Below, piece after piece: positions 1-51,343 of a DNA stretch of 51,349 bases. Positions within the stretch are counted from its first letter, which is position 1, and each line of letters opens with the position of its first letter. The notes below the pieces were generated by a model. It worked only from the letters and a program-made list of their open reading frames with translations. It searched no databases and was not told where the DNA came from. The translations under genes were made by a program, and so were the position numbers. Source of the DNA: Clostridia bacterium (GTDB taxonomy: Bacteria > Bacillota > Peptococcia > DRI-13 > UBA5745); NCBI GenBank assembly GCA_018436095.1, contig JAHDMJ010000033.1, forward strand, positions 1-51,349, read 5' to 3'.

Positions 1-87
1 CAAAGGTGCATGGATGCCCTTCAAGCCATTAAACCGAAGCTCCTTAAAATTGCTCAGGAACAGATCAAGTTACTCAAAGCAGCTTAA
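1..87 (+). CDS. C-terminal end of an unidentified reading frame (partial)
   Basis: A frame open from the left edge runs 28 codons to a TAA at 85-87. The visible residues form a Lys/Leu/Ala-rich helix ending IKLLKAA. There is too little to assign a family. It lies directly beside repeat cassette A, so a transposase C-terminus is conceivable but nothing in these residues proves it. Most of the gene is outside the window. Confidence 0.3.
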   Translation, partial: QRCMDALQAIKPKLLKIAQEQIKLLKAA

Positions 88-284
88 CCAACTCGAAAAA
101 ACTACAGCCGAACGAATTTACACACAAATTTGGACTTGACCCGGTTCTTGGCTGTATTTAGTGGCGAAGGTAGATTGAAACCCCTATTTTAATGGAGTGA
201 ACTACAGAATACTTCAAATTTTGTACAAGCCTGTGACTTAGGCGAATTTTTCAGTGTCCCTAGTTCGCAGGCCGTTAACGAAAA

Positions 285-527
285 TGTGCAAAAATACAGG
301 TTTGTAGCGGCCAGCCAGGTATTTGGGTGCAAAATTGCAAGTTTATAGCCTGTTCTTTCTTTAAAATAGAGGGTTTCTTCTGCCCCTGACCCTAAATACA
401 GCGAAAAAAACCGTCTTAGAACACTTTAAACTTGAGATTTTGCTCATTTTCAAAGGGAACAGACGACAAACCTGCATTTTTGAACAGTTAGCTTAAGTCA
501 ACAGCAACAAACCTGCATTTTTGAGCA
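285..527. repeat. Intergenic repeat cassette A (two forward, three inverted 21-nt motifs)
   Basis: Forward copies of a motif with core TGCAAAAATGCAGGTTTGT lie at 285-306 and 327-347. Inverted copies lie at 422-446, 466-486 and 506-527. Using the G of GTTT (or its complement) as anchor, the copies sit at 300, 341, 431, 471 and 512, so neighbours are 40-41 bp apart. A word CTAAATACAGC at 392-402 is echoed in inverted form at 150-161. No gene is visible between 88 and 595; the short open frames here overlap the repeats and lack ribosome binding sites. The same architecture recurs near 22.3 kb and 38.2 kb. Confidence 0.75.
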
Positions 528-22078: not shown

Positions 22079-22535
22079 TGTGCAGGTTTGTAGGGACTCC
22101 GGGGCCAGGGCAGGACATAAAATAAGCCAAAAATGCAAATTTAAAGTGGGCCGTTTCTCTATGGTAGTGGGAAATTCCCATGTGACAGTGTTTCTTCCTG
22201 CGACGAAACAATATATATAGAGCAAAGGCCTATCCCTAATGGAAAGAAATGGGTACCCCCCCCACCGGCAGGGGGTGGTTGGCTTATTGAGGTCCCCCCT
22301 CTGTGCAAAATTGCAAGTTTGTCTTCGTCTAGAGACCCTTATCAGCGGGAATGTTAGAAAGCTTAAGCATTTTTTGCAGTTTGGTAGTGAATTCATTTCT
22401 GCCAGGACACTAGATACAGCCAAGGCCTACATTTCTACTTATTTTTTGAGCCGCCATAACTCTAAGGGGTGTCTACAAACCTGCATTTTTGCTCAACTGG
22501 CGCCCTTACTGGATACAAACCTGCATTTTTGCACA
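22079..22535. repeat. Intergenic repeat cassette B
   Basis: Forward motif copies lie at 22079-22095 (half copy, TGCAGGTTTGTAG), 22126-22143 and 22302-22323. Inverted copies lie at 22475-22495 and 22515-22535, 40 bases apart, separated by a 19-base spacer. The rightmost copy ends TTTTTGCACA. The words TTTAAAGTGGGCCG (22140-22153) and ACACTAGATACAGCCAA (22407-22423) recur exactly in cassette C, 16 kb away. No gene is supported between 21928 and 22757. Confidence 0.72.
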
Positions 22536-35987: not shown

Positions 35988-37370
35988 ATGGACTTAATTG
36001 CAGAAAAAGAACGGCAAAAGCAATTCATCCTGACTGGGGGGCTGTGGAAGGTAATGTCCCAGCTTTCCTGGCCAGCCGTCATCGCTATGGTATTGTACGG
36101 CTTCAACACCGTGTTGGACGCCATCTTCGTAGGTCAATTTGTCAACGGCACCGCCCTGGCGGGGGTGTCTCTTGCTTACCCTCTTTCCCAAATAAGTACG
36201 GCCTTGGGCTCCCTGGTTGGCGTAGGGGCAGGCTCGGTGCTAAGCATTGCTTTGGGCGCAAAGGATCACTATACTCAGGAGCGGCTTTTGGGGGTGGTCA
36301 ACCGCCTGTCGATTCTTTGCACCGCCATTTATATGATTCTGGCCCTCACCTTTGCGGATTTTCTTATCGCCATGATGGGCGGTACAGGGCAAGCCCTTTC
36401 CTATGGGGTTAGCTATTTCCGCATCTGTACCCTGGGCTCTTTCTTCTGGATTTACGGCCTGGCGGGCAATATGATTATCCGGGCCGAAGGCAGGATGAAA
36501 ACGGCGGCCTGGATGATGGGCGTAGGCCTTGGCGTCAACGCCCTCTGCAACTATATCTTCATGGGAATTTTTGATATGGGCGTGGCAGGGGCGGCCTGGG
36601 GCACCAATGTGGGGATGTTCGCTTATAGCCTTATGGGCTGGCTCTATTTCGGCAGAAGGAAAGCTACTTTCCAGAGCAAACTGCTTTCCCTGAAGGGAGA
36701 CAAAAAGATTACCACCTCCGTTGTGCGCTTGGGGATGCCCTCCCTTATGATGAGCATCATGAGCTTGATTCAGGGCGTCGTCGTCTTTAACGCCCTGGCC
36801 CGCTACGGCACAACAGCAGATATTGCTTTCTACGGCGTGATTTACCGGATATTCCAGTTCCTGCTCACCCCCATTTTCGGCCTGATGCGGGCTCTGCAGC
36901 CGGTCATCGGCATCAATTACGGCGCCAGGCAATATGACCGGGTTATCCAGTCCTACAAAATCTTTGCCGTGGCTGCCCTGCTGCTGACCCTGCCTTTCTG
37001 GGCTATTTCCCTCATCGCTCCCGGTTCTATTCTCGGCATGATGCTGAAGGATCAGGTATTCACCGGTACCCAATTCCTGCATTTCCGGGCCTATATGGCC
37101 ATATTGCCGGCCCTGTCCTTTATCTTCATGGCCATGACCCTCTTCCCCTCTGTAGATAAGGGCAAACCTGCCATGATTATCGGTATGGCAAGGCAGTTTG
37201 TGTTTTACATCCCGGTGATGATGCTGCTGCCGAAGTTTATCGGCGTGGCCGGCGTATATTACGGTTCGCTGGCCATTGATACCATCATTGTGCTGTGGAC
37301 CGTTTTGCTGGTCAAAAAGGAGTTTAACGGCTTACGGAGCAAGGGAAGATCGGAGGCCGCGCAGGGATAA
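35988..37370 (+). CDS. MATE family efflux transporter
   Basis: A 460-residue permease with about 12 helices in two related halves; WKVMSQLSWPAVIAMVLYGFNTVLDAIFVGQFVNG at the N-terminus and the central FGLMRALQPVIGINYGARQYDR are the family patterns (in parts). MATE proteins export cationic drugs or metabolites in exchange for Na+ or H+. It closes the operon begun by the ABC pair. AGGGAGC precedes the ATG. Directly after its stop begins the long G-rich hexamer array, so its mRNA 3' end would be strongly structured. Confidence 0.92.
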   Translation: MDLIAEKERQKQFILTGGLWKVMSQLSWPAVIAMVLYGFNTVLDAIFVGQFVNGTALAGVSLAYPLSQISTALGSLVGVGAGSVLSIALGAKDHYTQERLLGVVNRLSILCTAIYMILALTFADFLIAMMGGTGQALSYGVSYFRICTLGSFFWIYGLAGNMIIRAEGRMKTAAWMMGVGLGVNALCNYIFMGIFDMGVAGAAWGTNVGMFAYSLMGWLYFGRRKATFQSKLLSLKGDKKITTSVVRLGMPSLMMSIMSLIQGVVVFNALARYGTTADIAFYGVIYRIFQFLLTPIFGLMRALQPVIGINYGARQYDRVIQSYKIFAVAALLLTLPFWAISLIAPGSILGMMLKDQVFTGTQFLHFRAYMAILPALSFIFMAMTLFPSVDKGKPAMIIGMARQFVFYIPVMMLLPKFIGVAGVYYGSLAIDTIIVLWTVLLVKKEFNGLRSKGRSEAAQG

Positions 37371-37380
37371 AGGAGCAAGG

Positions 37381-38037
<657 letters not shown>

Positions 38038-38133
38038 GGTGGATAGAGACGCAGCCGGCAGCAGGGTAGCGGGGTAACGGGGGCCACGGGACGGCAGAGT
38101 AGCGCGGTAGCCGGGAGTTGGACAGTGCCTGGC

Positions 38134-38397
38134 TGCTCAAAATTGCAGGTTTGTCACCGTTGGCTATGGCTAACTGTTCAATTTTGCAGGTTTGTCGCTC
38201 ACTAGCTTAGCAAAATGTGCAAAATTTCAAGTTTAAAGTGGGCCGCCCCCCTAAAATAGGCCCTTCACCCCATCCTCAACACTAGATACAGCCAAAAAGA
38301 GTTTTTCAGCCCAATTAAAGTCGTCTTCAGACACTTTAAACTTGAAATTTTGCACAAAACCTTATGAGTGAACCCTACAAAGCTGCAATTTTGAGCA
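38134..38397. repeat. Intergenic repeat cassette C (three forward, two inverted 21-nt motifs)
   Basis: Forward copies at 38134-38155, 38175-38197 and 38216-38236 have anchors at 38149, 38190 and 38231: exactly 41 bp apart. Inverted copies are anchored at 38341 and 38382, also 41 bp apart. The third forward and first inverted copy form a perfect 25-bp inverted repeat (38216-38240 with 38332-38356). TTTAAAGTGGGCCG (38232-38245) and ACACTAGATACAGCCAA (38279-38295) are shared with cassette B. No gene is supported between 37371 and 38641. Confidence 0.8.
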
Positions 38398-51182: not shown

Positions 51183-51343
51183 TGCACAAAAATCGAGGTT
51201 GTGTTCCGGCAGGCAGCGGATTTGATCGTTTTTTGCTTCCAGATGCACAAAAATCGAAGTTGTGTGACGGATTAGAGGGTAGTTTTTCGTAATCTGAGCC
51301 AAATTTGAAGGAAATAGTGCAACACAACTTCGATTTTTGTGCA
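51183..51343. repeat. Repeat locus D: related motif, two forward and one inverted copy
   Basis: TGCACAAAAATCGAAGTTGT plus GT occurs forward at 51183-51204 (one mismatch), forward at 51244-51265 and inverted at 51322-51343 (exact). It has the same skeleton as the cassette A-C motif but a different core (ATCGAAG instead of ATGCAGG). The outer copies bound a 161-bp segment without a gene. Confidence 0.7.

Follow-up and report, generated by a model that had tools for sequence, protein, structure and literature searches.

The window, that is, the whole stretch of DNA that we analyzed, is 51,349 nucleotides long and constitutes contig C35 of a 3.7-Mb genome assembled in 38 contigs (G000). It holds three cassettes, A, B, and C, in which a motif of about 21 bp recurs every 40 to 41 bp, in forward orientation on one side of a core and in inverted orientation on the other. 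With site coordinates counted from the TG with which the motif starts, and inner length measured from the TG of the innermost forward site to the CA of the innermost inverted site, the features are as follows.

1..138, plus strand: 3′ end of an IS256-type insertion sequence.
285..527: cassette A; forward sites at 285 and 326 (step of 41 bp), inverted sites ending at 446, 486, and 527 (steps of 40 and 41 bp); inner length of 121 bp, a rung of the length ladder described below.
22302..22535: cassette B; forward site at 22302, inverted sites ending at 22495 and 22535 (step of 40 bp); inner length of 194 bp, a rung.
38134..38154, plus strand: cassette C, forward site 1 (TGCTCAAAATTGCAGGTTTGT).
38175..38195, plus strand: cassette C, forward site 2 (step of 41 bp); the preceding spacer ends in GGCTAAC.
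38216..38236, plus strand: cassette C, innermost forward site (step of 41 bp), of the TTTAAAGTG type as in the sister species.
38237..38335: cassette C, core, with a conserved CACTAGATACAGCCAAA at 38280-38296; inner site-to-site length of 141 bp, a rung.
38336..38356, minus strand: cassette C, innermost inverted site.
38377..38397, minus strand: cassette C, outer inverted site (step of 41 bp).
51183..51343: element of a related family, D (TGCACAAAAATCGARGTTGTGT); forward sites at 51183 and 51244 (step of 61 bp), inverted site ending at 51343, fourth site lost to the contig end; inner length of 100 bp.

A preliminary description of this DNA had reported a 40- to 41-bp register in all three cassettes. 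All of its coordinates hold, far beyond chance (eight motif matches in the window with up to three mismatches, compared to 0.02 expected), and in cassette B, where the rule also stands, we additionally found the forward site at 22302, which had been overlooked. Directly to the left of cassette C, at about 37276-38087, lies a long, GC-rich degenerate repeat (gcgggtgcgggcacgg...) that is open in several frames on both strands. An Rfam scan of the window returned only a cobalamin riboswitch (1175-1366) and a tRNA. At all five junctions that we saw, namely, the starts of contigs C2, C4, C17, C20, and C35, a copy of the IS256-type insertion sequence (ends GGTTATGTCC / GGTCAAGTCC) is embedded in a motif cassette or adjoins one, as if the cassettes were a target of this insertion sequence. 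Elsewhere in G000, C32:2-1546 carries a collagen-like Gly-Pro-Thr repeat frame of over 500 codons that runs off the contig start.

The cassettes belong to a set of about a hundred small intergenic repeat elements in G000, where the motif occurs 403 times with at most one mismatch and its reversed pattern not once. Our figures derive from a complete reading of four contigs (C4, C34, C38, and C35; 1.116 Mb in total) and from loci fetched for carrying the motif. Within the 1.116 Mb we find 139 sites, compared to about 1 in shuffled DNA, and 57 of the 63 same-strand steps below 200 bp measure 40 bp (23), 41 bp (33), or 42 bp (1), leaving 6 others; both the excess of the motif over chance and the preference for the 40- to 41-bp spacing, on which the earlier claim hung, are therefore real. 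Clusters run from forward copies through the core to inverted copies, the few exceptions being adjacent or nested cassettes, with mostly one to three and up to four sites per arm. The spacers, which had been called unrelated, follow two consensuses: most 41-bp units carry TANCGTTCGCNNNGGCTAAC, and in many 40-bp units the spacer ends in GGCATTT. A CRISPR array can be set aside, given that these spacers share consensuses and that the arrays occur at many places in the genome, each with its repeats inverted around a core. Cassette B is one of a multicopy, near-identical family varying by whole 41-bp units. Copies of this family differ by exactly one unit, and contigs C10 (1-160) and C24 (1-120) open within tandem 41-bp units that are identical, spacer included, so gain and loss affect entire units; the two contig starts could be opposite sides of a single long tandem array that the assembly left unjoined.

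The arrays are known from two species of one genus. A search of 84,980 species genomes, from which near relatives of G000 may be missing, matched only the MAG "Clostridia bacterium SM1-B15.1" (G004), and searches of viral contigs, plasmids, and phages gave no meaningful match. No motif arrays turned up in three further members of the genus (80 to 85% complete) or in the rest of the class, and a count of exact 41-bp tandem pairs gave 95 for G000 and none for any of 45 other genomes from the class. G004 has arrays with 41-bp steps as well, together with about 70 simpler elements in which one forward and one inverted site TGAGCAAAATTGCARGTTTAAAGTG enclose a core with CACTAAATACAGCCAAAT; these have inverted TG...CA ends, span 119 to 204 bp, and are without coding capacity. 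Seemingly single motif copies in G004 are paired, with two exceptions, one that stands alone and one close to a contig end.

The sharpest regularity lies between the two arms. Inner lengths, considered from 90 to 230 bp only, form a ladder with rungs at about 120, 130, 141, 152, 162, 172, 183, and 194 bp and a period of 10.4 to 10.5. In G000, where elements were fetched independently of inner length, the 52 values are 111 (1), 119-122 (16), 130-133 (7), 140-141 (7), 151-153 (4), 160-164 (7), 172 (1), 183-184 (2), and 192-194 (7), with a best period of 10.4 and a vector length R of 0.83 (mean null maximum, 0.24). In G004, where part of the set came from a pattern with a 90- to 120-bp gap, the 72 values are 119, 130-131 (5), 139-142 (41), 150-153 (21), 162, 171-172 (2), and 204, with a best period of 10.5 and an R of 0.92 (mean null maximum, 0.23). 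Phase and period were fitted first and then compared with jitter: none of 2,000 jittered null sets was as extreme as the observed ladder, and the same held after similar copies had been removed. Two sequence-unrelated core types and the remainder all stand on this ladder, with mean phases of 4.6, 5.8, and 3.9 of 10.5. The suggestion that proteins bound at 41-bp steps would sit on one face of the DNA holds only approximately along an arm, because 41 bp corresponds to 3.9 turns at 10.5 bp per turn; sharp phasing is a property of the two arms relative to each other.

Three further motif families, E, F, and D, share this design. Family E (TGTACAAAAATTGCGTTTGT) keeps a step of 41 bp in 13 of 13 cases; family F (TGTACAAAATTTGARGTTTT), whose pattern also catches some M sites, has steps of 61 to 62 bp, as does D, a strict 2+2 element of 221 to 223 bp (step of 61 or 62 bp) with 141 copies in G000 within two mismatches. 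Inner lengths in the three families (97-100, 118-120, 138-141, 149-150, 160-162, 171, 181-182, and 202 bp) are in about the same phase as the main ladder, the samples for E and F being small. Family E elements with exact 41-bp steps are found in G000 at about 126.17-126.41 kb of C4 and in G004 at about 169.3 and 336.2 kb of C1; the G004 copy at 169 kb lies within an insert bounded by TGACCAATGTCA...TGACATTGGTCA.

That these elements are mobile is supported by the flanks of the simple sister-species elements and by lineage-specific sites. Among the simple G004 elements outside other repeats, 25 of 42 are flanked by the same three bases on both sides (AAA/AAA or TTT/TTT), compared to 12.9 expected and a maximum of 21 in 500 shuffles, a pattern that target duplication of 3 bp in A/T tracts would leave. 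For the G000 arrays, a 3-bp flanking repeat was seen in 2 of 52 cases against 2.8 expected, so that neither their outermost nor their innermost sites show a target-site duplication. Contigs C4 of G000 and C1 of G004 are syntenic and about 85% identical, and at all four cleanly syntenic G000 cassette sites of this pair the element is absent from G004, while the G004 element at C1:199040 is missing from G000. Neither the aligned empty sites nor the insert borders in G000 are sharp, because several other repeats are nested there. We suppose that the array elements move like the simple ones. The repeat GAGGGCACTGAAAAAGTC, which flanks some cassettes, was considered as their true end and rejected, as it belongs to a separate MITE that occurs with 9-bp target duplications in several contexts. 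Clean 9-bp duplications of this MITE are seen at C34:82150, at L093:11964, and at L214:2086 of G004, and the MITE often lies in or around motif arrays, with D or M elements inside it.

We consider it fairly probable that the cassettes are nonautonomous mobile elements of the MITE type, with an array of recombinase sites at each end and the two arrays pairing by DNA looping. Each end would consist of one to four copies of a recombinase-binding site of about 21 bp (TGNGCAAAAWTGCARGTTTGT), placed every 40 to 41 bp, and a short core would separate the two arms, which are inverted relative to each other. A recombinase supplied in trans would bind the sites, and the arms would be joined by looping out the 80 to 155 bp between the innermost ones. 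A loop this short lies close to or under the persistence length of DNA, so the complex would form only where the two arms face one another, at inner lengths of about 10.5n + 4 bp; elements of this kind would be the ones to multiply, and transposition itself would thereby select the ladder. With equal steps in both arms, successive pairs of sites could dock along the arms; this equality, together with a core length fixed modulo one helical turn, points to a complex that holds the arms together while the core is looped. More tentatively, and with doubts that outweigh our confidence, we raise the possibility that the elements represent a superfamily of bacterial transposons that has not been described before, with site arrays at both ends and arms that dock one site after another along the looped core.

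The ladder would also arise from looping that serves regulation. A chromosomal protein could make small loops at these arrays to insulate, terminate, or organize the chromosome, the copies spreading passively or along with other repeats. A looping repressor or a bridging protein would require just such a ladder and multisite arms. All cassettes are intergenic, which speaks for mobile elements as well, and 10 of 23 separate convergent genes, compared to 57 of 367 intergenic regions (gene calls being simple ORFs). The outer borders of the arrays, moreover, are not sharp. However, restriction to two species is unlike a core chromosome-organizing system, the simple elements bear 3-bp flanking direct repeats, and four families with different motifs share one design, so that we regard regulatory or architectural loops as unlikely. 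The 41 bp could alternatively be the unit length of slippage and the ladder the copy number of a core repeat of about 10 bp, the cassettes being passive tandem repeats with accreted MITE debris; some array units are indeed exact duplicates, and one core type, core1, contains AAATRCAGCC-like decamers. Yet the ladder extends across unrelated cores and other motif families, and close relatives vary by single indels of 10 to 12 or 21 bp at different places, the +11 steps differing in both place and sequence of insertion. Because the indels sit at different places, the ladder is not the copy number of one decamer alone, and we find this explanation quite improbable.

A structured RNA or a transcription terminator, the former being among the hypotheses of the preliminary description, would draw on the inverted arms, which let any transcript fold as a long hairpin, and on the fact that one core type is itself a hairpin. 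Against this, among 40 elements only 1 of 20 predicted pairs shows compensatory change and a variable A/G position breaks its pair in seven sequences, no cassette has an Rfam match, and the 10.5-bp ladder is left unexplained. Arms that vary without compensation argue for recognition of DNA rather than RNA, which makes the RNA hypothesis very improbable. REP/BIME-type repeats mobilized by a RAYT (Y1) transposase and locally expanded by tandem duplication are hardly credible, for although the elements are high-copy, short, and intergenic in both orientations, and local tandem amplification does occur (starts of C10 and C24), the Y1 transposase domain (PF01797) has no match in G000 and one in G004, the motif is not a REP palindrome, and a single-strand hairpin mechanism gives no reason for the ladder.

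Against the mobile-element reading itself stands that we found neither an autonomous copy nor a cognate transposase. A survey of roughly 1.1 Mb from G000, 0.35 Mb from G004, and numerous loci turned up no long element with the same ends, and contig starts examined for a parent element held only the IS256-type insertion sequence and array repeats. Searches with PF01695, PF00665, PF01797, PF01609, and IS256 (PF00872) returned no gene linked to the cassettes and no partner with motif ends, the families tested being single and unlinked. In G000, IstB (PF01695) matched frames of 324 to 389 amino acids at 22 to 53 bits, which we read as other AAA+ proteins; rve (PF00665) matched one unlinked, IS3/IS150-like gene whose ends lack the motif, with no TnsB-like rve gene; and DDE_Tnp_1 (PF01609) gave a single match, a frameshifted IS1182-like transposase gene at C4:168970-169950. 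The absence of a transposase is weak evidence, because MAG and draft assemblies lose repeated genes.

These searches bear on where the cassettes are best filed. The preliminary description knew of no named family with this layout, which is right within the searches made, and of its three hypotheses, that of multisite transposon ends shrunk to a MITE fits best, given the TG...CA ends, the inverted multisite arms, the dispersed and lineage-specific copies, the 3-bp flanking direct repeats of the simple form, and the helical phasing between the ends. Its Tn7/Mu-like part found no support: there is no IstB partner, the only rve gene is single and unlinked, and the apparent target repeats are 3 bp rather than 5 bp. 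An IS21-type element was rejected: it would account for multiple direct repeats per end and TG...CA ends, but no IstA/IstB pair was found and the apparent target repeat has the wrong length. Of the features that define a MITE, terminal inverted repeats, lack of coding capacity, dispersed copies, and empty orthologous sites are present, and an autonomous relative with the same ends is absent from the stretches examined; the simple G004 elements show most of these features and the G000 arrays only part. The most fitting place for the cassettes is thus a new variety of MITE-like element. In the literature, which we covered incompletely, we found neither arrays of this kind nor a length ladder in bacterial MITEs.

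If the looping mechanism is correct, one genome already contains the data to measure to what extent DNA twist constrains the assembly of a transposition complex; until now, such measurements have come from engineered IS50/IS1 constructs and ciliate germline DNA. The mechanism would also predict an unknown recombinase that reads multisite ends and would supply natural substrates, one helical turn apart, for testing how multisite ends pair, a question open for Tn7-type elements (PMC10122671). Should the superfamily reading be true as well, the elements would amount to a natural bacterial helical-twist experiment with at least eight successive rungs in four motif families and one phase.

Like known MITEs, the elements are short, noncoding, high copy, and intergenic, with inverted TG...CA ends and, in the simple form, 3-bp flanking repeats; unlike them, they carry at each end two to four directly repeated sites at a constant register of 40 to 41 bp, follow a helical length ladder, and have no known parent element. 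Several direct sites of about 20 bp per end, inverted between the ends, are shared with IS21 (L1-L2/R1-R2), the TnsB sites of Tn7/CAST, and phage Mu. IstA requires two complete repeats (PMC10122671), and in a CAST the activity varies with TnsB-site spacing with a periodicity of about 10 bp (PMC10201428). Here, in contrast, no linked IstA/IstB, TnsB, or other transposase gene was found, there are up to four sites per end with an inner length of 120 to 190 bp, and the target repeat is 3 bp, compared to 5 bp for IS21 (as reported for IS5376). With REP, BIME, and REPIN sequences the cassettes have in common dispersed intergenic repeats in paired inverted orientation and insertion sequences, here of the IS256 type, inserted in them; they differ in the lack of a RAYT gene in the host genome, a longer nonpalindromic site, and the helical spacing rule. 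Helical dependence has been described for the ends of IS50 and IS1, as cited in PMC3464196, and, in short transposon-like DNA, for the lengths of the internal eliminated sequences (IESs) of Paramecium (PMC3464196) and of Blepharisma (PMC9942856). These IESs are the closest parallel to the ladder in that they, too, are natural short DNA of transposon origin whose lengths peak every ~10 bp, which has been read as looping in an excision complex (PMC3464196, PMC9942856). They are, however, ciliate germline DNA with single sites, mostly below 115 to 150 bp, and are handled by a domesticated piggyBac transposase, whereas the element described here is bacterial, carries arrays of sites, and has rungs at 99 to 204 bp.
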